Assembly (NCBI RefSeq): GCF_024323335.1
Contig: NC_066583.1
Coordinates: 412,188,031-412,252,030 of the forward strand
DNA: 64,000 nt
Direction of reading: 5' to 3'
Origin: Lathyrus oleraceus
Lineage: Eukaryota > Streptophyta > Magnoliopsida > Fabales > Fabaceae
How positions within the stretch are numbered: position 1 is the stretch's first letter; every line of letters starts with the position of its first letter. Shown here piece by piece: positions 1 through 62,312 of this stretch. The notes under the pieces were generated by a model that was not told where the DNA came from, made no database searches, and saw only the letters and a list, made by a program, of their open reading frames with translations. The position numbers and the translations under genes are program-made.

Positions 1-884
1 TTTTGAGTGTGTTTAACCTTTTTGTTTCTTTTGACGTCTCAGCGTCTCCTTCTCTTTGTGTTTGTATGACAGCTATTAGGCTCGAGTTCCAAACTCCCTT
101 TTAGTTTGTCAATCTGACAACCTTTTTCCTCTTTGTGTGTGTTTAGAGTCGGATGTAAGACCATCTATTGGCATTTTGTTTCCTTTTGTTGGGTTATTGT
201 TTGGAGTCGGATGTAAGACCATTTATTGGCATTCTGTTTCCTTGTGTGTGTTGTTTGTTTGGAGTCGGATGTAAGTCCATGTATTGGCATTTTGTTTCCT
301 TTTGTTTGGTTATTGTTAGGAGTTGGATGTAAGTCCATGGATTGGCATTCCGTTTCCTGTTGAGTTTTTCTTTTGACGTCTCAGCGTTTTTTTTTCGGTG
401 TTTTGTTTCGGCGTGCCTTAGCCGAACTACGACAGCTCGGATTCTCATTCCATATGAGATACGTAGGCATAGGATGCGATGTCCTAGCGAGCATGTTCCC
501 CATTTCCCCGAACTACGTTGACTCTGTTGTTTGTTTCTGACAAACTACGTAGGCCCAGGATGCGACATCCTGCCGAGTCCCCTTCCTCTATCTTCTTCCA
601 CCTATTTATTATTCCAGTGTGTGTGCATTTCTTTGAGCAGTTATTTAGCAACCTTATTCTATTCTTGTAAGCGTGGATCCCGTCGAGTACGACGGACGTG
701 AGGGGTGCTATTACCTTCCCCTTGCGTAACCGACTCCCGTACCTTGCAATCTCTGGTCGTAAGACCGTTCCTTTCCCTTTTCTTAGGTTAGTCCTGCGCT
801 TCCTTTCCGTCATAGGATGAATAGCGTCGGTGGCGGCTCTGTAAACTTGTTTTTTTCCCGCCGGTTGTTTTTCGCGTTGCGACA
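1..884 (+). repeat. 3' end of an A-family LTR (tail of preceding tandem unit)
   Basis: This stretch matches 2930-3807 and 15054-15912 base for base with few differences, so it is the terminal part of the same LTR. It holds the 58-bp minisatellite, two CTACG...CGTAG modules, the GGTGGCGGCTCTG sequence, and the LTR terminus ending in GCGACA at 884. No primer site follows; the next bases (CTAAATAAGG) belong to the Y LTR. It is best read as the tail of an A 3' LTR whose body lies left of the window. Minus-strand ORFs here recur in all three LTR copies and are not genes. Confidence 0.85.
145..376 (+). repeat. 58-bp minisatellite inside the A LTR, four units
   Basis: The units start at about 145, 203, 261 and 319, an exact 58-bp period. 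Each reads GGAGTCGGATGTAAG, then CCAT-TATTGGCAT-CTGTTTCCTT and a T/G-rich spacer. The same four-unit array recurs at about 3069-3300 and 15208-15420, so it is a fixed part of this LTR family. Confidence 0.85.
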
Positions 885-1132
885 CTAAATAAGGATATTC
901 ATTGGCTTGTTTTCGATTTTTATTTTCATCTCATTTTTATTTCATTAGGATATTATAATTAATCAAATGGTGGATTAACTGTTAAGGCCAACAAATAATT
1001 TACCTTATTTTCTAAAAGAAATTTGATTTTGGTCCAATACCAAATAGTCTTTCTCAAAGTATATTAATCCTAAATAAATTCAAATTCACCGTATTTAAAT
1101 AATATTCTCTTAACATTATTTAAATTAATTTT

Positions 1133-1978
1133 GATTGAAAAGGAGAATAGTAAGCCTCCACTTCACTATCTCTCGATTATTCGAATAATTGGCGTACGTC
1201 ATATTACTCGGATCTTCGTCATTCAATAAAAAACTCTATAAATTTAAAATCATTTCCCTGATTTAATTATAAATTCTAAAAGCTTTATTTTAATAATTAA
1301 TCTTTGAATGAAAAGGAGAATAGTAAGCATCTGCTTCACTATCTCTCGATTATCCGAATAATTGGCGTTCGCCACATTACTCGAATCTTCGTCATTCAAT
1401 AAAAACCCTAATAATCATACAAAATATAAAGCATATTCCTAAATTAAGGTAATACTCAAAATATATGTAAATTTTAAAACTTGGGATGAAAAAGGATATA
1501 GGAAGCCTCCGCTTCACTATTTCTCAATTACTCGAATGATTGGCGTACGCCACATCACTTGAATTCTTGTCACCCGATTAAATAAATCATTCAAATTCAA
1601 ATTATCTTCCTATATCAAATACAACATCTCGGGACATATCCTTTATAAATTAAATTTTGGATGAAAAAGAATGGGAGGCGTTCGCCTCACCATTTATTGA
1701 ATAATTGAATGATTGGCGCTCGCCACATTGTTCTGATTATCGACTTCCGATTAATACATTTTAATTAAACTTGGATAAAGGAATAAGTGGCGCACACCTC
1801 ATTATTCTTTCAATAAGCAAGTAGGAGGCGTACGCCTCACTACCGTGCATATTCAACATCCGCAAACAAACTTTCAAAATAATTTGAACGAAAAAAGGAG
1901 TAGAAGGCGGTCGCCTTATTATTCCTAGAAAGAATTAGACGATTGGTGTGCACCACATTGCTCAATCTTTTGTCGTTC
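1133..1978 (+). repeat. Array of about six structured repeat units in the Y LTR
   Basis: Units lie at 1133-1227, 1306-1397, 1483-1575, 1659-1750, 1774-1846 (divergent) and 1886-1978, spaced about 175 bp with AT-rich spacers. Each can pair as P1 (GAATGA with TCATTC), a long hairpin P2 (unit 2: GAGA-ATAGT-AAGCA with TGCTT-C-ACTAT-C-TCTC) and a second hairpin P3 (GATT, CGAATAAT, TGGCG with CGCCA-C-ATTACTCG, AATC). Stem sequences change between units with pairing kept. Perfect palindromes include TGGCGTACGCCA (1541-1552) and GAGGCGTACGCCTC (1825-1838). The role is unknown. Confidence 0.75.
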
Positions 1979-2244
1979 TTCAAAAAATATCTCAAACATG
2001 TTAAACTCAACTTCTCGCCCCCGAGCGACCAAAACCAGTCAAACAAAACATAAAACATATCAATTTAACTTGTCACCCCACGTGACCAAAACTCTTTTCA
2101 GAAAGAACACTGTTAATCCTTTCTAATGCGCATAACAAACCAACGCTTAAGCCTCCGCCGAGAGTAGACAAGTCAACATCTAGCCTTTAGGACGCGATCT
2201 ATACAACCATTCATTAAAAGAAACCAACAAAACCGTAGTTCTCC

Positions 2245-2316
2245 GAACTACGAATGATCTGACTTCCTTATTGCACCATAAGGATACGTAGGCACGAGAT
2301 TGCGAGATCTTGGCGA
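2245..2316 (+). other. CTACG/CGTAG module with hairpin, Y LTR
   Basis: GAACTACG is followed about 35 bases later by ATACGTAGGC, so CTACG can pair with CGTAG. Directly after comes CGAGAT-TGCGAG-ATCTTG, a six-pair hairpin with one wobble. Just upstream, CGTAGTTC-TCC-GAACTACG (2234-2252) forms a competing perfect eight-pair hairpin. The second Y copy (17236-17310) has CAGTAGTTC at the upstream arm. Confidence 0.6.
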
Positions 2317-2644
2317 GTACACTAATAAGAAACCTCTTTTTCCCCCTTCCCGAGGTTTCCATCCATCTCTATTATCAAATCCTTATCACTTGAAGAAAGT
2401 GAATAACATTCAACTAACATTCAAATAGCAAATTGGACTAAAAGGTTCCCGTTGAGTACAACGGACGTGAGGGGTTCTAATACTTTTCCCTTGTGTAATC
2501 GACTCCCGAACCCGAATATGGTTGCGACGACCATTATTCTAATTTCTAAAAGGTTTTATAGATATTTTCCTATTCCTTCATTGGGATAAATAAAGTTCGG
2601 TGGCGACTCTGTTCGAACTAATTTTTCCGCGACCATTGCGAGGA

Positions 2645-3807
2645 ATCTTATTTTTCTGTGTGTGTTTTGCTTGACAGCTATTAGGTCCGAGTTCCAGACT
2701 CCCTATTAGTTTGTCGTCGCCCTTTTTCTTTTTAAACCTGTTTGTCTCTTTTGACGTCTCAGTGTCTCTTTGTGGTGGTGTGGTAACTATTAGGTCCAAG
2801 TTCCAGACTCCCTATTAGTTTGTTTCTCCCCTGTTAAGGGGAACTACGTCGCCCTGATTCTCATACCAGATGAGATACGTAGGCAGGAAATCGAGCAAGA
2901 TCTCTCCGGGCAACCTTTTCTTTTTTTGAGTGTGTTCAACCTTTTTGTTTCTTTTGACGTCTCAGCGTCTCCTTCTCTTTGTGTTTGTGTGACAGCTATT
3001 AGGCTCGAGTTCCAGACTCCCTTTTAGTTTGTCAATCTGACAACCTTTTTCCTCTTTGTGTGTGTTTGAAGTCGGATGTAAGACCATCTATTGGCATTCT
3101 ATTTCCTTTTGTTGGGTTATTGTTTCGAGTCGGATGTAAGACCATCTATTGGCATTCTGTTTCCTTGTGTGTGTTGTTTGTTTGGAGTCGGATGTAAGTC
3201 CATGTATTGGCATTCTGTTTCCTTTTGTTTGGTTATTGTCAGGAGTTGGATGTAAGTCCATGGATTGGCATTCCGTTTCTTGTTGAGGTTTTCTTTTGAC
3301 GTCTCAGCGTTTTTTTTTCCGGTGTTTTGTTTCGGCGTGCGTTAGCCGAACTACGACAGCTCTGATTCTCATTCCAGATGAGATACGTAGGCATAAGATG
3401 CGATGTCCTAGCGAGCTTGTTCCCATTTCCCCGAACTACGTCGACTCTGATGTTTGTTTCTGACAAACTACGTAGGCCCAGGATGCGACATCCTGCCGAG
3501 TCCCCTTCCTCCATCTTCTTCCACCTGTTTATTATTCCAGTGTGTGTGCATTTCTTTGAGCAGTTATTTAGCAACCATATTCTATTCTTTTGAGCGTGGA
3601 TCCCGTCGAGTACGACGGACGTGAGGGGTACTAATACCTTCCCCTTGCGTAATCGACTCCCGTACCTTGCAATCTCTGGTCGTAAGACCGTTCCTTTCCC
3701 TTTTCTTAGGTTAGTTCTGCGCTTCCTTTCCGTCATAGGATGAATAGCGTCGGTGGCGGCTCTGTAAACTTGTTTTTTTTTCGCCGGTTGTTTTTTGCGT
3801 TGCGACA
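2645..3807 (+). repeat. Element A 5' LTR, left-truncated
   Basis: It matches 14788-15912 of the 3' LTR and ends in TTGCGTTGCGACA, immediately before the primer site. Only the last 1.16 kb of an LTR of about 3.9 kb is present. The start is the duplication junction with Y, sharing the bases TTTTTC. It contains three GACAGCTATTAGG-type direct repeats, the 58-bp minisatellite (about 3069-3300) and CTACG/CGTAG modules near 2841, 3349 and 3432. Confidence 0.85.
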
Positions 3808-3809
3808 GC

Positions 3810-3829
3810 TGGAGACTCTGCTGGGGACC
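3810..3829 (+). promoter_or_regulatory. Primer binding site, element A
   Basis: TGGAGACTCTGCTGGGGAC begins two bases after the LTR end. It matches the PBS of elements B and C in this window except for an A in place of C at the fourth base. Tat/Ogre elements are known to use an arginine tRNA. Confidence 0.8.
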
Positions 3830-4976: not shown

Positions 4977-6773
4977 TTGATTGACTCAGGAATCATTGCT
5001 CGCGCATGCAGAATCATCCTTCTGCACGTAGCTCGTCCGCACAGATACCCTACCAGGCGCAACAAATCCAAACTGGTGGATTCAACCAACGCTGACATTC
5101 TCGAGCTGAAAGAGAAGATGAGTGAGTTGGTCAACGTCATGCAAGGGTTCGCCTTGGGGCAGAAGGCACTTGTTGAGAAGGTGGAAAAGCTTAAGCGGGC
5201 TTCGGCTGCCAATAGTGGCAATAATCAGAAGGGTGTTTCCAACAATGGTCTCGGTGGTTCTAGGGATGGTGGTGATCCCAGAAGGAAGGCGACTACTGCT
5301 GGTGTAGTGATCAACAATGGGGGAGGTTTTGGTTTCGCTACAGGCGGAGGGCCAGGTCCTGTAGGAAATAATCTGAAGGATAATCAGTTTCCTTCTTTCT
5401 TTGGGGCCATGGAGGATAAAGAGGAAGATCAGTTCTCTGTGCTGAACGAACAGTTTGGTCAGTGGGGTGTTCAACCACCGAATAAAGAGATTCAGGCACT
5501 AGCAGAGAAGATCAGGGCTCTGGAAAGCCATGCTACTCCTGGGGCTATCAACATGACAAACATGGGGCTAGTTGAGGGGATTGTGATCCCGCAGAAGTTT
5601 AAAGTGCCCACGTTTGATAAATACAATGGGAGTTCTTGCCCGGAAACTCATCTTCAGGCCTTTGTCCGAAAAATATCTGCCTATACAATGGATCAGAAGC
5701 TCTGGATGTACTTCTTCCAGGACAGCTTGTCTGGGGGGTCTCTGGAGTGGTATACCAAGTTGAGATCATCGGATATCAAGAACTGGCAGGATTTGGGAGA
5801 AGCTTTCTTTAAACAGTACCAGTTCAATGCTGACATGGCTCCTAGCCGTACCCAGTTGCAGGGTATGTCTCAGAAGCCGAATGAAGGGTTTAAAGAATAT
5901 GCGCAGAGGTGGAGGGAGTTGGCTTCCAGAGTTCAACCTCCGTTGGTGGATAGGGAAATGTCTTATCTGTTCATGGGTACCCTGCAGGGGACTTTTGCTG
6001 AGAAAATGGTGGGTTGTCCCGTCACTGGTTTTACAAACATTGTGGTGGCAAGGGAGAGAATTGAAAGCTGGCTGAGAATGGGGAAAATACAGGGAAATGC
6101 TCCGTCATCTGGAGTAAAGAAGCTATTTGGGAACGGTCAGCGCAAGAATGAGGGTGAATCGAGTGTTGTGTATGCCCAGAGAGGACACGGTAGGGATCGT
6201 TACTACCGGCACACTGCTGCGGTAACAATTCCTACTGGTAATCAATCGGTACAACAGCAACATCAGCCACCTCAACAGAGAGCACAGAGAACTGGGTACC
6301 AAGTGAGAGGAAGGATGGCAGATTGTCAGTTTGATAGGCCACCCGTGACATATGCTTTTCTATTTAAGAAGTTGATGGATCTTGGGTTGGTTCAGTCGAG
6401 GACGATGGCTCCGGTAAGACCAGATCAGAGGCCTGCCAGTTATGATGAGAACGCCAAGTGTGAATTCCATTTTGGTACACTAGGGCATAACATTGAGGGT
6501 TGTAGAGCTTTTAAGCATGTTGTCCAAGATTTGGTAGACTCCAAGGCCATCAACTTTGCACCATCGCCGAATGTTAATGCTAATCCCATGTCGGCGCATG
6601 GTCAGGTGATGGTGGGTGCAATTGCTGAGGATTCAGATCACGTCTGTGCGGTGGGTGAAGAAATTGACAGTGACTGCGAGCTGGATTCGTGGATAAAACC
6701 GTGCGTACCAGGGATGGAGATCCAGAACTGGAAGGCCGAAAAGATCATCACTGTCACTCTGCAAGAAGAGTAG
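4977..6773 (+). CDS. gag: Gag polyprotein of element A (598 aa, intact; protease lost)
   Basis: Capsid/nucleocapsid precursor that would package the retrotransposon RNA in the cytoplasm. The N-terminus is basic (RYPTRRNKSK near residue 23) and followed by a coiled-coil-like stretch. The central part is a Retrotrans_gag capsid domain, with landmarks IPQKFKVPTFDKYNG, YFFQDSLSGG, LEWYTKL and FKEYAQRWRELA (about 205-320). After a Q-rich linker (about 410-440) comes a variant zinc knuckle CEFHFGTLGHNIEGC (about 493). The expected protease region between knuckle and C-terminus is absent, yet the frame stays open to LQEE-stop. The ATG at 4977 is the first in frame; an upstream start is possible. The final stop lies inside the predicted intron donor (6770), so spliced RNA would continue into pol. 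It is the only undamaged long ORF in the window. Confidence 0.85.
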   Translation: MIDSGIIARACRIILLHVARPHRYPTRRNKSKLVDSTNADILELKEKMSELVNVMQGFALGQKALVEKVEKLKRASAANSGNNQKGVSNNGLGGSRDGGDPRRKATTAGVVINNGGGFGFATGGGPGPVGNNLKDNQFPSFFGAMEDKEEDQFSVLNEQFGQWGVQPPNKEIQALAEKIRALESHATPGAINMTNMGLVEGIVIPQKFKVPTFDKYNGSSCPETHLQAFVRKISAYTMDQKLWMYFFQDSLSGGSLEWYTKLRSSDIKNWQDLGEAFFKQYQFNADMAPSRTQLQGMSQKPNEGFKEYAQRWRELASRVQPPLVDREMSYLFMGTLQGTFAEKMVGCPVTGFTNIVVARERIESWLRMGKIQGNAPSSGVKKLFGNGQRKNEGESSVVYAQRGHGRDRYYRHTAAVTIPTGNQSVQQQHQPPQQRAQRTGYQVRGRMADCQFDRPPVTYAFLFKKLMDLGLVQSRTMAPVRPDQRPASYDENAKCEFHFGTLGHNIEGCRAFKHVVQDLVDSKAINFAPSPNVNANPMSAHGQVMVGAIAEDSDHVCAVGEEIDSDCELDSWIKPCVPGMEIQNWKAEKIITVTLQEE

Positions 6774-12048: not shown

Positions 12049-13312
12049 TGTAACACCTCAAAATTTGCCCTCCTCTTCTTGGGACTAGTTTGACACATTG
12101 CATTTCATATTCTAGGACATTAGGCATTTCATTTTTGCATTTCATGAGAATTGAGAGGTCATCCTCCAAAGTCTTTTCAAATGATGAAGAGTTGCATGAT
12201 TCAAGCCTGAGGGTTTCCGTGAATTGATGATCAACCATATGAGGGTTTGCACTTCAATTAGGGTTTCCTGATCCTTCAAAGGTCTTGAGCATTATCTTGT
12301 TTGCAAGGGTATATTATCATCATCATGGTTATGTCATTATCCAGGGTTTCATGACTCATGCTCAAGTTCCTTTGGATTAGGGTTTTGACCTCTGGTCAAC
12401 CCTAATCAATTGCATTCTTTCAACTAGGGTTTCTCAAGGAGATGAGGTATTCTATTGAGATGGAGATCACATGGTTATATTGAGAAGCTTACATGAGCTA
12501 AGGTTTCATTTCTGAGCAAATTCCTCAAGTGGTGGAGTTTCAAGTTGATCAGGGCATGTCAAAGTCATCTGAGGACCATAAAAGTCAACTGTGCAGTCAG
12601 TTGGGGGCTTTGAGATGAGGAAGTGAGTTTCAACACCTCAATCATGTTCAAGAGAGGTCCATTTTTCATTTCAAACATCTAGCTTGAAGATTTTGAAGTC
12701 AGGGCAAAAGTTTCCAAAAATGGAAATTGACCTGTAATTGAAAGTTTCCAAAAATGGCAAGTTTTTGGTCCACATTCAACTTGACTTATCAACATCAAAT
12801 AAGCTTCAAATGGATTTTTGGTGAACATTAAAGTTGAAGATCTTTCTCTCCTCTTTTCAAAAAGTCAAGGATCATGTCCATCTGATAATTGGTTGAGAAG
12901 TTATGGCCAAATGATCACAAAGTATGCATGGAAGTTCAACATGGCATAACTTTTGCTTCAAAACTCCAAATTGGTCCACTCTTTTTGCAAAATACTTCTT
13001 GTGACCAATACTTTCCAAATCAATCATTGCCTTGCATGGAAAAAGTTCATATGATCATGTGTTCATACATGTGCATTTTGGAGGGAAAATCCATAATTTG
13101 AATTTGGTTGATTATACAAGCAATTTAATCATTCCATGTTGATTTTTGGATGTTTTTAAGTGAGATTTAAGCCATTGCATGCACTGTTCACGTGCACATG
13201 TCCATGCATAACCTCATTTGCATATTTTTGCACTTTGCTTCACATCTCCTTAATTTTAATTAACCAAGCCTAATTTGGATTAGCATTGTCATTAGCACAT
13301 CATATATAAGCC

Positions 13313-13320
13313 TAATCATA
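13313..13320 (+). promoter_or_regulatory. TATA box of the A LTR promoter
   Basis: TATATAAG in CATCATATATAAGCC, followed about 25-30 bases later by a C/T- and A-rich start region. It lies about 1.26 kb into the LTR, similar to the TATA positions in the other LTRs here. Confidence 0.5.
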
Positions 13321-14705
13321 ACAGAATTTGCTCAGAACAACAATTCTAGATCTCAAATTCCTCTTTCCCTCCAATTTCTCTCTCTCCTTGAATTTCAAAT
13401 TTCTTCACACAACCACAAGATTTCTTCATAGATCCTTGATCCTGGTGGAATTTGGAGCAAGAAGCATTCATCATTCGTGGCAATTGAGCAAGATTTGGAG
13501 CTATTCAAGTGTATGAACATGTCCATGGAAGCTTCAAATTAAGCTGGATCTGGTTGGTTTCAAGTGAGGATTTGTGCTCAAAGCTTCTAATCAATCATAT
13601 TGGAGCAGATCTGGATCATTTGGAGGCTTGAACACGCGAATTCCATCACTGCAAGTTCTAAGTATTTAGCACTAATGATTGGTGTGGCCTCATCATTTGA
13701 GATGCCATTTGCTTTGATTACCAACTCTTGTTGTGTTGTAGGTCCATTGATGTGATGAACTCACTTGAGTGCTTGCATTTGAGACTTACATTGTGTATAA
13801 TTGTTGGATGATTCCACTTTGTTGTCTGTTGGTTTTTTCTGTCTGAGATATTGACTGTTTGGCTTTTGTATAGGTACATTAGTCGCTTTTAGCTCTTGCT
13901 TGAGCTTTTCTTTGGAGTGTGGTTTATACACCACTGAGGTAGTTTAGCCTTCTCACTCCATGTAGTCTGGAAGCCCTGTCGCTTTTTGGCAGGCATTTGG
14001 CCGAAGTCCTCCTTAAGAGGTAATGTCTGTGATTGTTTACATTTGTGTTGTTACTTGTTAAGTCCTCCTAAGTGAAAAGGCAATTGACAAATAGAAGGGA
14101 TTAGCAATCAATCCCCTGTTAGTCGTTGAGTCGTTCATTATGCTCGCACTACGTGCTGATGCTCTTGAACCTAACCCAAGATCTTTGTATAGAGTCAGTC
14201 AAGTGGAATAGGGTCCCTCATTTTGGACCCCCACGTTTTCATTGATTGGAGCTCACCCAGGCCAGGGTTAAGAGCATGAGGTCTCATCCTCATTACCTTT
14301 CATCAGCTTCACCCTAACTCTCAATGTTAGTGGTTAAGAGCTTCAACACACCCCTACAGTTTTGGCTTGTTTGTCAAGGTTGATATGACCCCTTGACTAA
14401 AGCCCAACCATTTGTCTGAGCCTCTTGTTTGTATATAGAGTGTGATGATTTCTTTTTATATGTTTATCTGTTTTCCACTTCTCATCTCCTTTTCTGTAGG
14501 AGTCGTATGATCAACTTTCGAGGAAGTTGAACGTACGTAGAGATAGACTTGAGTTGACTCACTTCCTGTGTGAGTCAAACTCTTGTTAGAGACCTCAACC
14601 TAGAGTTTTAGTTTGCATGACAACTATTAGGCTCGAGTCAGTCTCCCTTTTAGTTCGTTGTTTCCCTGGTCTCTGGTTAGGAGAGAGTTTCTCCTCTGTT
14701 AAGGG

Positions 14706-15640
14706 GAACTACGTCGCCCTGATTCTCATACCAGATGAGATACGTAGGTAGGAGATCGTGCGAGATCTCTTCGGGTGCCCTTTTCTTTTTCTGTGTGTGT
14801 TTTGCTTGACAGCTATTAGGTCCGAGTTCCAGACTCCCTATTAGTTTGTCGTCGCCCTTTTTCTTTTTAAACCTGTTTGTCTCTTTTGACGTCTCAGCGT
14901 CTCTTTGTGTTGGTGTGGTAACTATTAGGTCCGAGTTCCAGACTCCCTATTAGTTTGTTTCTCCCCTGTGTAAGGGGAACTATGTCACCCTGATTCTCAT
15001 ACCAGATGAGATGCGTAGGCAGGAGATCGAGCGAGATCTCTCCGAGCAACCTTTTGTTTTTTTGAGTATGTTCAACCTTTTTGTTTCTTTTGACGTCTCA
15101 ACGTCTCCTTCTCTTTGTGTTTGTGTGACAGCTATTAGGCTCGAGTTCCAGACTCCCTTTTAGTTTGTCAATCTGACAACCTTTTTCCTCTTTGTGTGTG
15201 TTTGGAGTCGGATGTAAGACCATGTATTGGCATTCTGTTTCCTTTTGTTGGGTTATTGTTTAGAGTCGGATGTAAGACCATCTATTGGCATTCTGTTTCC
15301 TTGTGTGTGTTGTTTGTTTGGAGTCGGATGTAAGTCCATGTATTGGCATTTTGTTTCCTTTTGTTGGGTTATTGTCAGGAGTTGGATGTAAGTCCATGGA
15401 TTGGCATTCCGTTTCCTGTTGAGTTTTTCTTTTGACGTCTCAGCATTTTTTTTTCCGGTGTTTTGTTTCGGCGGGCGTTAGCCAAACTACGACAGCTCAA
15501 ATTCTCATTCCAGATGAGATACGTAGGCATAGGATGCGATGTCCTAGCGAGCATGTTCCCCATTTCCCCGAACTACGTCGACTCTGATGTTTGTTTATGA
15601 CAAACTACGTAGGCCCAGGATGCGACATCCTGCCGAGTCC
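14706..15640 (+). other. Four CTACG/CGTAG modules with hairpins, A 3' LTR
   Basis: Modules start near 14706, 14978, 15484 and 15570. Each reads (G)AACTACG, about 35 bases, then (A)TACGTAGGC, then a hairpin: GAGATC-GTGCGA-GATCTC, GAGATC-GAGCGA-GATCTC, TAGGA-TGCGATG-TCCTA and CAGGATG-CGA-CATCCTG. Stem sequences differ while the loop keeps GCGA or CGA. In the second module TAC is TAT and TACG is TGCG, so the outer stem changes in both arms. Confidence 0.65.
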
Positions 15641-15913
15641 CCTTCCTCCATCTTCTTCCACCGGTTTATTATTCCAGTGTGTGTGCATTTATTTGAGCAG
15701 TTATTTAGCAACCTTATTCTATTCTTTTGAGCGTGGATCCCGTCGAGTACGACGGACGTGAGGGGTGCTAATACCTTCCCCTTGCGTAACCGACTCCCGT
15801 ACCTTGCAATCTCTGGTCGTAAGACCGTTCCTTTCCCTTTTCTTAGGTTAGTCCCGCGCTTCCTTTCCGTCATAGGATGAATAGCGTCGGTGGCGGCTCT
15901 GTAAACTTGTTTT

Positions 15914-17651
15914 TTTTCATCTCATTTTTATTTCATTAGGATATTATAATTAATCAAATGGTGGATTAACTGTTAAGGCCAACAAATAATTTACCTTATT
16001 TTCTAAACTAAATTTGATTTTGGTCCAATACCAAATAGTCTTTCTCAAAGTATATTAATCCTAAATAAATTCAAATTCACCGTATTTAAATAATATTCTC
16101 TTAAAATTATTTAAATTAATTTTGATTGAAAAGGAGAATAGTAAGCCTCCACTTCACTATCTCTCGATTATTCGAATAATTGGCGTACGTCATATTACTC
16201 GGATCTTCGTCATTCAATAAAAAACTCTATAAATTTAAAATCATTTCCTTGATTTAATTATAAATTCTAAAAGCTTTATTTTAATAATTAATCTTTGAAT
16301 GAAAAGGAGAATAGTAAGCATCTGCTTCACTATCTCTCGATTATCCGAATAATTGACGTTCGCCACACTACTCGAATCTTCGTCATTCAATAAAAACCCT
16401 AATAATCATACAAAATACAAAGCATATTCCTAAATTAAGGTAATACTCAAAATATATGTAAATTTTAAAACTTGGGATGAAAAAGGATATAGGAAGCCTC
16501 CGCTTCACTATTTCTCAATTCTTCGAACGATTGGCGTACGCCACATCACTTGAATTCTTGTCACCCGATTAAATAAATCATTTAAATTCAAATTATCTTC
16601 CTATATCAAATACAACATCTCGGGACATATCCTTTATAAATTAAATTTTGGATGAAAAAGAATGGGAGGCGTTCGCCTCACCATTTATTGAATAATTGAA
16701 TAATTGGCGCTCGCCATATTGTTCTGATTATCGACTTCCGATTAATACATTTTAATTAAACTTGGATAAAGGAATAAGTGGCGCACACCTCATTATTCTT
16801 TCAATAAGCAAGTAGGAGGCGTACGCCTCACTACCGTGCATATTCAACATCCGCAAACAAACTTTCAAAATAATTTGAACGAAAAAAGGAGTAGAAGGCA
16901 ATCGCCTTATTATTCCTAGAAAGAATTGGACGATTGGTGTGCACCACATTGCTCAATCGTTCGTCGTTCTTCAAAAAATATCTCAAACATGTTAAACTCA
17001 ACTTCTCACCCCCGAGCGACCGAAACCAGTCAAACAAAACATAAAACATATCAATTCAACTTGTCACCCCAAGTGACCAAAACTCTTTTCAGAAAGAACA
17101 CTGTTAATCCTTTCTAATGCGCATAACAAACCAACGCTTAAGCCTCCGCCGAGAGTAGACAAGTCAACATCTAGCCTTTAGGACGCGATCTATACAACCA
17201 TTCATTAAAAGAAACCAACAAAACAGTAGTTCCCCGAACTACGAATGATCTGACTTCCTTATTGCACCATAAGGATACGTAGGCACGAGATTGCGAGATC
17301 TTGGCGAGCAAACTAATAAGAAACCTCTTTTTCCCCCTTCTCGAGGTTTCCATCCATCTCTATTATCAAATCCTTATCACTTGAAGAAAGTGAATAACAT
17401 TCAACTAACATTCAAATTGGACTAAAAGGTTCTCGTTGAGTACAACGGACGTGAGGGGTTCTAATACCTTTCCCTTGTGTAATCGACTCCCGAACCCGAA
17501 TATGGTTGTGACGACCATTATTCTATTTTCTAAAAGGTTTTATCGATATTTTCCTATTCCTTCATTGGGATAAATAAAGTTCGGTGGCGACTCTGTTCGA
17601 ACTAATTTTTCCGCGACCATTGCGAGGAATCGTATTTTTCGAGATGCGACA
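15914..17651 (+). repeat. Y-family LTR fragment, copy 2, with true 3' end
   Basis: Nearly identical to 922-2640, but the tail continues to ATTTTTCGAGATGCGACA, a proper CA end at 17651. The next bases, ACTGT, are the candidate target duplication inside the pol of element B. The structured array is repeated at about 16127-16977, with some G-to-A or C-to-T changes that break pairs (for example TGGCG to TGACG near 16353). It is AT-rich and non-coding. Confidence 0.75.
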
Positions 17652-26942: not shown

Positions 26943-28406
26943 ATGGATAAGCAAAGGAGGTATACGAAGAAGTACGGTTTCAGACAACCCGACTTGAAAG
27001 AGTTAAAGAGTTTGACATCCTATGTATTAGATCCCTTGGAGTTCAAGGCTCGTCAGGGGAAGTTTCTGTCTATTCTTGCTACTCAGGTGGATGAAGGTCT
27101 GATGAGTGTGTTGGTGCAGTTCTATGATCCCTTGTACCGTTGCTTCACTTTCCTGGATTTCCAGCTTTTGCCTACACTTGAGGAGTATGCCTATCTTGTG
27201 GGTATACCTATCTTAGATTAGTTATCGTTCAGTGGCTTGGAGAGAGTTCCTTCTTCCTAAGAGATTGTTGATCTGTTGCACATAGATGTATCTGATATTG
27301 GTGCTCATATGACTACCAAAGGAGGAATTCAAGGTCTACCATCTGATTTCCTCATTGCCCAAGCTACTTTGTTTGGGAAGGCCATGAGTGAGGACGCCTT
27401 TGAGGCCATGTTTGTACTTCTCAACTATGGGCTAGTGTTATTCCCCAACATCGACAATTTCGTGGATGTGAACGCTATTAGGATTTTCTCTACTCTTAAT
27501 CCCGTTCCGACTCTGTTGGGTGACACTTATTTCTCTTTGTATATGAGGAATACAAAGGGTGGTGGTACCATTTTGTGCTATTTGCCTCTGTTATGCAAGT
27601 GGTTTATTTCGCACTTGCCACAGACGCTCGCCTTCAAGGAGAACAAAGGATGTCTACGGTGGTCTACGAGACTTATGTCTCTCACTAATGTTGATATATT
27701 TTGGTATAACTGTGTATATGATGGTGTCCAGATTATTGATTCTTGTGGTGAATTCTCCAATGTGCCTCTTCTTGGTACATGTGGTGGGATTAACTACAAC
27801 CCTGTTTTGGCACGCCGTCAGCTTGGGTTCCCATTAAAGGATAAGCCTAATAACATTTTATTAGAAGGTGTGTTCTTTCAAGAGGGTAAAGATCCCCAAA
27901 ACTTGAAGGGTAGAATGGTTCGCACTTGGCGCAAGATTCATAGGAAGGGAAGAAAAGAGCTTGGTCTGAAGAACTGTGTTGCTTTGGAACCCTACATCTC
28001 TTGGGTGAGGAGGAGAGCTTCTGAGTACCGCATGCCCTATGATTACCCGGGACCTACACCTATGGTTATGGTTGGGCCTTCAACCCTCCCTGACCAAGGA
28101 GTAGAGGAGTTGAGAGATGAAGATCGTTCGCGTCCTTGGGTCTGTGAGCGAGAGGAGCTACTTCAGCAACTCAGAGATAAGGATGCTTTGATAGAATTTC
28201 GTGAGCATCAGGTTATCGACGAGCCTGATGATGTGGTGACTTCTCTTCTTCCTCAGTCATCCAGGTTTTGGAAGAGGAAGTATGATCGACTCGCCAAGGA
28301 GAAGGCAAATATGGAGGCATCCTATGAGAGAGAGGTGAAGAGGCTTCGTGCAGCTTATCTTCCGGGCTCTAGAGCTTTGGAAGATTGTTTCGAGGGTTCC
28401 ATATGA
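26943..28406 (+). pseudogene. Ogre ORF1, DUF7745-like protein, element C
   Basis: This is the extra ORF that precedes gag in Ogre elements; its function is not established. It starts MDKQRRYTKKYGFRQPDLKE and contains VQFYDPLYRCFTF, PTLEEYAYLVGIPI, GFVDVNAIRIF-like NFVDVNAIRIF and GGINYNPVLARRQLGFPL, the landmarks I associate with the legume DUF7745 family (recognised from memory, not searched). The last 100 residues or so are charged and likely coiled coil. In-frame stops sit at 27219-27221 and 27258-27260, so an ORF of about 487 codons is broken near residue 93. The same protein is encoded by element B at 49747-48239. Confidence 0.8.
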
Positions 28407-60200: not shown

Positions 60201-62312
60201 TTCCTCGACCGAGTCCATATTCAGATATCGAAGATCTTTGATTCCTGACAGTGTTTAGTCTTGAGTAATGTTTGATTTTGGTCTCCTGCGAGGTTGTCCC
60301 CCCATTTAATATGGTGTTGACCTAAAATCCCCTGCAGAGTTGACAATTTAGATCCTCAGCATATATTTTTCTCCTTCCCCAACCAGGATTGAGTTATTCA
60401 GAGCCAGATGATTGGCGTTCATCCCTAACATCTTTTCTCCATTTGGTGTTTCCACCTTGCTGAGATTAGCCGAGTGTTGCAGTGGTGATTCAAATCTCTG
60501 ATATTTGTATCCTCTGTGATGGTTTTGTCAGCATAATCATCAAATATATACATATTCATGCATAAAACACATCATCAGATATTTCATTATGCATCTTTAT
60601 TTCATTTGATTCCTTATTTCTGATCCCCTGCTACGATGATATTATTCCCCTATACATGTTTGGTGTGTTTGTCCTCTCTCAATAGTAGAGGGTCAGTCCA
60701 TTAAGAAATAATTTAACCTTTCTCATTTCCCCACTGACTTATTTCCTCTTCGACGATTATTGTTTCAGTTTCCTCCCCAATTAAGTATCTGGATGGAATC
60801 ACTCCCCTTGAGTTATATCCTCATTGGGTTGAGTGTTTGTTCGACCTTTTCTTTCTAGCTCTTACCTAGGTGGATGTTTTGGTCCCCTGAGAGTCTATTA
60901 CCCAGTAACTGGTAATATTCTTCTCAATTTTTTTTAGTACTTTACTTTTCCCAATACCCGGTAAAATATAACATACTTCCTTTGCTTTCCCAGCGGATTC
61001 TTTTTCACGTTTCCCTATGCAGTTTATCCTTGATATGTTTATCCTAACTGGTGATGGATATTCTTCCTTTGTGGTTTTCTACCCAGTAAAAAGGTAGTTG
61101 CAATCCCTATTTCACTCCCCAGATAGTTTATCCTTGATATGTTCATCCTAACTAGTGACGAATATTCTTCCTTTGTGGTTTTCTACTCAGTAAAAAGGTA
61201 GTTACAATCCCTACTTCATTCCCTAGAGAGTTAATCCTTGATATGTTCATCCTAAACGGTGATGAATTTTCTCCTCTTTTGGTATTCTATCTAGTAACCG
61301 ATAGATATAAATCCTACTTCTCCCCTCATAATTAATCCTTGATATGTTCATCCTAACCGATGACGGATTTTCTCCCTTTTTTGGTCTTCTGCCCAATAAC
61401 AGGTAGTTTTAAATCCCGCTTTCCCCTGCTGAGTCTATCCTTGATATGTTCACCCTAACAGGTGACGAATATTCTCTTTTTGGTATTTTATCCAGTAACT
61501 GATAAATGTAATTCCTCTTTTTCCCCGGCAGTCTATCCTTGATATGTTCATCCTAACCGATGACAAATATTCTTCCTTTTAAGTTTATCCTTGATATGTT
61601 CACTCTAACCAGTGACGGATATTCTCTCTTTGGTCTTCTGCCCAGTAACTGGTAGTTTTAAATCATATTTGATATATTCCCTAGCAGACTATTTCTTACC
61701 CAGTAATTGGTAACAAATGCACCTCCTTCTTTTCAGCGAGTCATCCTTGATATGTTTACCCTAACCGGTAACAGATGTCCCTCTATAAGAGTACATTATC
61801 TTCCTACCCAGTAACCGGTAATAGATAATATATTATGGTACTCCTATGTTGAAGTTCATTCTTCCCTGGTTTGAGTTTGAGCGTGTATTTACTCAGTGAA
61901 GTCTCCAACCCCTGTTTGGTTCAGGTATTTTAGTTTTGTTCTGACCTACCCGTTTCCCCTGCAGAATTTCCCTTTTCCCCGACCGAGTCTTTTCATTGAT
62001 TTATTTTCATGGAATTCCCCTCGTGTCTCCAGTAGTTTTCAAGTCGTAGCCTGGCCTACGCATAACTGCTTATCCCCTAGAGTCTTTGTCTCCCCGGTGA
62101 GTTTTTCCTTATGCTCTTGGGGATTTTCAATCTCTCTGGATTCTTTTCCTTTGTGGCAATATTTTTCCCATGAAGATTATTTTTAACATTCATATCATAT
62201 GCATCATGAGGTCTCTTAGGGACCAATTTTTTTTTCTATATGTTGTTATTTAAGTCCATCTACTGAGTTGATACGAAGATTTTAACCTTCACATCCTCAG
62301 TTAGAATGTCCT
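60201..62312 (+). repeat. 3' UTR of element G with AGTAACYGGTA / ATCCTAACCGGTGAC repeats
   Basis: Between 60900 and 61830 two motifs alternate: CCAGTAAC-GGTAG and CCTTGATATGTTCATCCTAACCG-like, followed by GTGACGGATATTC. Units are about 100-120 bp and degenerate, roughly eight in number. No coding sequence is supported. It corresponds to 39100-40100 of element C. Confidence 0.72.

Follow-up and report, generated by a model that had tools for sequence, protein, structure and literature searches.

The retroviral packaging/dimer-linkage leader is one composite structure; plant RNA viruses have translation enhancers of Y-shaped and three-way-junction form, and plant hammerhead retrozymes have three-way-junction RNA in their LTRs, which are short. 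Among LTR retroelements, TR-GAG elements are gag-only and non-autonomous, and Ogre elements have an extra ORF upstream of gag and an intron in pol. To our knowledge, the plant viral Y-shaped enhancers do not occur in tandem arrays of the size described here, and no cis-acting RNA of Ogre-like elements is known to us to have been mapped. PMC2206039 gives an estimate of more than 20% of the pea genome for Ogre-like elements, and the available part of PMC7004042 describes tandem repeats in the Ogre/Tat 3′ untranslated region that are hypervariable and serve as satellite sources.

The window analysed here, a stretch of 64,000 nucleotides of pea DNA, carries on the + strand an array of six units (copy 1, positions 1133–1982), and the + strand MFE fold is a three-way junction in all six. 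The units are located at 1133–1229 (MFE -23.3, z -2.96), 1305–1402 (MFE -28.9, z -4.52), 1482–1584 (a variant with a longer P1, MFE -28.8), 1650–1755 (MFE -31.5), 1765–1865 (MFE -26.8) and 1884–1982 (MFE -29.6, z -3.74), with z-scores computed for units 1, 2 and 6 of this copy only. Each unit consists of a closing stem (P1) and two hairpins (P2 and P3), and in the MFE folds each hairpin has a one-base bulge on its 3′ side, 4–5 pairs below a four-base loop. This architecture, the recurring 3′ bulge included, was described in an earlier note made from the letters alone, and all the P1, P2 and P3 arms that it quoted are present in the sequence. Its spacing of about 175 bp applies to units 1–4, the starts of which are 173, 178 and 175 bp apart, but not thereafter, where the distances are 114 and 113 bp; its count of five units and a divergent sixth is right as to the total of six, but unit 5, which is closer spaced and has two mismatches in P2 in copy 1, is divergent as well. 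In units of types 1, 2, 3 and 6, the junction strand from P1 to P2 mostly consists of three As and the two remaining junction strands are mostly empty; the junction strands of types 4 and 5 are variable. Linkers between the domains are AT-rich and unstructured, with a mean of 76 nt (138 linkers of 55–140 nt), and those flanking unit 5 in the window are 10–19 nt. It was also noticed that 123 of 154 units have an A-C mismatch at pair 9 of P3 (1358/1380 in unit 2).

A second copy of the array is located at 16124–16973 on the + strand, its units lying at +14991. Units 1, 3, 4 and 5 of copy 2 retain the fold, unit 2 refolds, and unit 6 retains P1 and P2 with a refolded P3. The arrays of the two copies differ at 15 positions, which, when polarised by a third locus, are divided into 10 changes in copy 2 and 5 in copy 1. 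The decay of copy 2 by G-to-A changes, as proposed earlier, is weakly borne out: the 10 changes include four G>A and three C>T, but of the three that disrupt pairing in the copy-1 fold, only one is a G>A.

Both copies belong to block B, the end part of an array-carrying LTR family, which spans 918–2656 (+ strand) and is repeated at 15910–17640 with 97.6% identity (self-BLAST). Block B in the window is followed by block A on the 5′ side and by flank on the 3′ side; the order is A-B-A-primer-binding site in 1–3807, where block A also occupies 2648–3807, and A-B in 12049–17651. The latter region, on the + strand, is the 3′ LTR of the window's element with putative boundaries; it starts with TGTAACACC, continues through block A into block B, which holds array copy 2, and ends in GCGACA. 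The primer-binding site region (GCTGGAGACTCTGCTGGGGA) follows the 5′ LTR at 3808–3827 (+ strand), and a gag frame is located at 4977–6773 (+ strand; Pfam PF03732, E 1.5e-12). By its sequence, the window LTR is chimeric, another LTR type, with the TGTAACACC start and 58-bp repeats, being joined to the array-bearing end; the blocks are arranged as if two LTR families had recombined. The array had been assigned to a “Y LTR”, and this has to be corrected, as it comes from another LTR family whose end is joined here to a different LTR type. Among the 66 loci described below, the chimeric junction was seen only in the two copies of the window.

The 58-bp tandem repeats of the other LTR type are found at 140–362, 3063–3283 and 15195–15421, and a 104-bp tandem array of about 5.5 copies at 61021–61580. 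As structure carriers, these tandem arrays found no support, four + strand stretches folding no better than shuffles (z +0.98 to -0.75); for the 58-bp repeats, the only stretch tested (136–252, 117 nt) had z +0.98. Elsewhere in the window, at 27276–28406, there is a frame with DUF7745 (PF24924, E 5.1e-93).

Relatives were searched for in the window's own 3.795 Gb genome, all of them coming from this one genome. The unit-2 query had 1699 first-look candidates and the unit-4 query 1879, of which 40 were scored in each case; each query gave 30 loci, and the locus counts are lower bounds biased to near relatives. Nine further places from the unit-2 query listing were read directly, giving a first set of 39 loci, and three unit-4-query loci were dropped as repeats of earlier ones, leaving a held-out set of 27. 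In this way at least 66 loci (the window's two copies included) with 2–9 units each were obtained. Both strands were searched in 60 loci, and within each of these the units shared one strand. Array-bearing LTRs are locally amplified at G000:C4:368.19-369.68 Mb, where 12 of the first 40 listed matches, ten of them equal-scoring, fell within 1.5 Mb.

Three-way junctions were formed by 110 of the 154 distinct units of the first 30 loci, compared with 10.9 expected from dinucleotide shuffles, and by 147 of 209 distinct units when all 39 loci were included (mean -30.2 kcal per 100 nt, 41% G+C). The spacers, which are shorter and have 22% G+C, gave 1 of 110 with a mean of -1.8 kcal per 100 nt, and 100-nt stretches of the LTR gave 12 of 276 upstream (-15.7 kcal per 100 nt, 34% G+C) and 18 of 167 downstream (-15.2 kcal per 100 nt, 43% G+C). 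In the held-out loci, 93 of 126 units were three-way junctions vs 9.9 expected from the same kind of shuffles. The + strand was preferred over the opposite one both in the first 30 loci (110 vs 85 of 154 units) and in the held-out set (93 vs 68 of 126). When whole arrays of the 39 loci were folded without restriction, 49% of the paired unit positions paired within their own unit, such mixing being a consequence of the near-palindromic hairpins, which are able to pair with their own unit and with others; a 110-nt limit on pairs raised own-unit pairing to 70–97% at an energy cost of 10–15% in the six loci tried.

Per-class MAFFT alignments with RNAalifold revealed no significant covarying pair. 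Because only four consensus pairs emerged when all classes were aligned together, the hairpins were anchored on their loops in a gap-free alignment. Sliding the partner by 1–3 bases lowered the paired cells from 85% to 40–53% in P2 and from 72% to 29–45% in P3. Twenty-seven stem pairs were chosen after the pair table of the first loci had been viewed, excluding P2.5 (the bulge may shift), P3.9 (the A-C mismatch) and P3.16, 17, 21 and 22 (mostly unpaired). Over these pairs, the covariation sum was 749 vs a null of 11.6 (sd 118), reached by 0 of 400 tree simulations (202 distinct units), and 4780 of 5454 cells were paired vs 3497 (sd 259) under a null in which the observed changes are distributed anew over the tree, a value reached in 0 of 300 simulations. 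Since the pairs had been picked post hoc, a held-out test was run with the pairs fixed beforehand; its covariation sum was 301 vs 10 (sd 67; 125 units, 27 loci), and its paired cells were 2890 of 3375 vs 2633 (sd 93), with 0 of 300 simulations reaching either value. The earlier claim that both arms change with pairing kept is therefore upheld by the 27 pairs, which covary beyond the tree null in both sets; with many family members aligned, covariation is significant at the level of helices.

Helix by helix, the simulations reaching the observed value numbered, of 400, 0 for inner P2, 6 for outer P2, 5 for inner P3, 18 for mid P3 and 5 for P3 10–15. The held-out signal came from inner P2 and inner P3 (0 of 300 each), the counts for outer P2, mid P3 and P3 10–15 being 20, 22 and 33 of 300, respectively. 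Covariation of the outermost P3 (pairs 18–20) was unsupported, being reached by 263 of 400 simulations in the first set and 142 of 300 in the held-out set. Taken singly, P2.3 alone was significant (E 0.01 among all 3403 column pairs). Two non-structural column pairs also had E below 1: 29–34 was rejected as an artefact, one base being shared there by the overlapping P2 and P3 blocks, with identical letter counts; the other was 78–82 (E 0.29). Thus P2 and P3 covary, on evidence at the helix level and among the relatives from one genome. As a descriptive observation outside the covariation tests, the arms of P1 change jointly as well (GAATGA/TCATTC, GAACGA/TCGTTC, TGGGATGA/TCACCCG, TCGGATG/CTTCCGA and TGGAT/ATCCA).

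Placement of the changes on the tree revealed that, in the first set, double compensatory changes were in excess on internal branches (12 vs 2.2 expected, 0 of 300) and near expectation on terminal ones (1 vs 1.3); in the held-out set they numbered 5 vs 1.8 on internal branches (9 of 300) and, leaning to excess, 6 vs 2.6 on terminal branches (17 of 300). Changes from paired states kept or broke the pair in 54 and 41 cases on internal branches vs 60 and 114 on terminal branches in the first set (p 4.8e-4), the figures being means of 20 parsimony resolutions (a single resolution gives 53/47 and 60/114). The combined set gave 69/65 vs 127/209 (p 0.007), and in the held-out set alone the contrast was not significant (29/27 vs 74/92, p 0.36). 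The ratio of GU to AC was 42:19 on internal vs 59:50 on terminal branches in the first set, a trend only (p 0.07), and 59:34 vs 121:107 in the combined set (p 0.11). Of 11 between-element comparisons, the four deepest had differences of 0.21–0.23 in spacers and 0.10–0.11 in units; in the three closest between-element pairs, units diverged more than spacers, and in four LTR pairs of one element each the differences were about equal (units 32/2513, spacers 17/1204). The pattern fits constraint on the fold in replicating copies and unconstrained decay of dead insertions, and suggests that an RNA shape is under selection inside an LTR tandem repeat.

The elements that carry the array have very long LTRs, as in Ogre-like elements, of 4.67 kb in one element (L110/L111) and 3.7 and 4.1 kb in another (L112 and L113, respectively). 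The LTRs of the two families align with each other only over their first 160 bp and from the array to the end. Similarity to gag, RT, RNase H and integrase, in gypsy order, was detected by tblastn in L116, between two same-strand arrays 18.9 kb apart. The L110/L111 element has LTRs 99.4% identical, a 587-codon gag-like frame and seven retained units, and pol queries found no match in its internal pieces (L118, L114 and L119). This element (L110, L118, L114, L119 and L111, at G000:C2:428.98-429.00 Mb) was seen to be inserted in the RT of another element. As read from its sequence, at least one recent gag-only non-autonomous element keeps the array; the structured array is thus present in an element, one with near-identical LTRs, that needs partners for reverse transcription. 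The L112/L113 element, with LTRs 96.9% identical over the longer of two segments, has gag similarity across several frames and no pol match to the pol queries. L083/L084 was rejected as a gag-only candidate, its gag-like frame (L117) being antisense to the arrays and the primer-binding site; at this place (L083, L150, L117, L151 and L084, G000:C2:462.62-462.63 Mb), near-identical array LTRs on the - strand enclose a gag-like frame on the + strand, as a nested or inverted insert.

Downstream of the array there is a conserved LTR-end block (2440–2650 in the window, + strand), which in 63 of the 66 loci starts 391–615 nt past the array. The primer-binding site TGGCGACTCTGCTGGGG was found no more than 160 nt past this block in 12 of the 66 loci; it was absent there in 31, the flank was too short in 20, and the LTR-end block was missing in 3. 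In L086, the array lies upstream of the primer-binding site by about 0.75 kb. TGGCGACTCTGCTGGGG presumably matches tRNA-Arg. This tRNA is the one given for the Ogre primer-binding site in the available part of PMC2206039. CT-rich stretches about 0.4–0.7 kb into the LTR suggest a transcription start upstream of the array, and therefore sense RNA would carry the array.

We propose, with about even confidence, that the tandem RNA domains in the sense strand of these Ogre-like Ty3/gypsy LTRs form a transcribed cis-acting platform, most likely for packaging and dimer linkage. The array would be transcribed as part of the genomic RNA, with predicted transcription start, splicing and polyadenylation, and would act there as a repeated platform on which Gag would drive packaging and two RNAs would be linked, the binding of Gag being putative and the near-palindromic hairpins being capable of pairing within one unit, with another unit or with another molecule. 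The first rank of packaging and dimer linkage rests on the retention of the array in an element that needs partners, on the primer-binding site lying downstream, and on the ability of the hairpins to pair within and between units; under this proposal, a gag-only element would still keep the array because the platform serves Gag-driven packaging and RNA linkage. A wider and more tentative reading, which we consider possible but rather doubtful, is that the array represents a retroelement cis-element of a new kind: a multivalent chain of Y-shaped RNA domains, similar in shape, that would be lengthened or shortened by unit duplication, be portable between LTR families by recombination, and tag Ogre-like genomic RNAs, those of gag-only elements included, for co-assembly and dimer linkage. 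The coordinated change of paired bases points to an unnoticed working RNA part in an abundant kind of retrotransposon. A repeated RNA domain supported by covariation is a concrete target for probing, and its occurrence in a gag-only element makes the recognition of non-autonomous plant elements directly testable.

The main rival to packaging is translation or splicing control. The conserved RNA structure would then serve another step, be it gag translation from a long leader (by internal entry or shunting), splicing control, export or stability, which we regard as somewhat unlikely. The array lies between the early-LTR CT-rich stretch and gag and would so be in a long putative leader, pea Ogre was reportedly found by Neumann in 2003 to be transcribed and partly spliced, and a gag-only element also requires gag translation; but short upstream frames starting in P1 are unconserved, and a conserved upstream frame in each unit was rejected, 136 of 278 units having no ATGA there. 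The units would have no RNA role at all if they were near-palindromic DNA repeats homogenised by copying, with both arms changing together through hairpin strand switching in reverse transcription or repair. Sequences like the palindrome GGCGNNCGCC (at most one mismatch) are indeed concentrated in the units, 16 of 19 matches in the window lying within the two arrays where 2.2 are expected in the window, abnormal strand transfer is hypothesised as the origin of Ogre tandem repeats in the available part of PMC7004042, and the 6 double changes vs 2.6 on held-out terminal branches lean the same way. Copying nevertheless fails to predict the strand preference, the GU intermediates and the fact that the P1 arms change together across a distance of about 90 nt, and terminal branches of the first set had no excess of double changes; we consider it improbable.

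Two further explanations appear to have little chance. Palindromic DNA serving as binding sites for a DNA-binding or silencing factor of the host would agree with CG-rich palindromic cores within an AT-rich part of the LTR, but such sites would account poorly for the strand preference, the one-sided bulge that is kept and the variable loop letters, and this explanation is very unlikely. Even less probable is a small-RNA precursor or decoy: hairpins do occur within a putatively transcribed repeat, but the stems are short and interrupted, and the sole microRNA-family match in 900–2700 lies on the opposite strand and scores no better than chance (E 1.3, 20 bits vs a cut-off of 140).

Comparison of the platform proposed here with described systems gave no match at the Rfam gathering score in the window, the best in 900–2700 having E 1.3, and no tRNA gene in the window by ARAGORN. 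A search for the LTR-end pattern gave 0 matches. A 17-base core pattern matched 70 loci in viral contigs, once each, with flanks unlike the units by eye, and these were taken as chance. No described array of such kind was recognised in the literature searched, which covered few subscription papers. The likeness to TR-GAG elements concerns the carrier L110/L111, not the array. Hammerhead retrozymes likewise have three-way-junction RNA in a plant LTR, but the array has no ribozyme family match, and the Y-shaped enhancers of plant viruses likewise place a Y-shaped fold in an untranslated region, but the array is without an Rfam match. Retroviral packaging/dimer-linkage leaders share with the array structured RNA near the primer-binding site and self-pairing hairpins, whereas the array is one module repeated 2–9 times and the role of Gag here is putative. 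The Ogre/Tat 3′ untranslated region repeats of PMC7004042, in the available part of which “secondary structure” occurs 0 times, form, as here, short head-to-tail arrays in Ogre elements, in a related legume. As described there (PMC7004042), those repeats sit downstream of gag-pol, whereas the pea array sits in the LTR and its RNA fold is kept.
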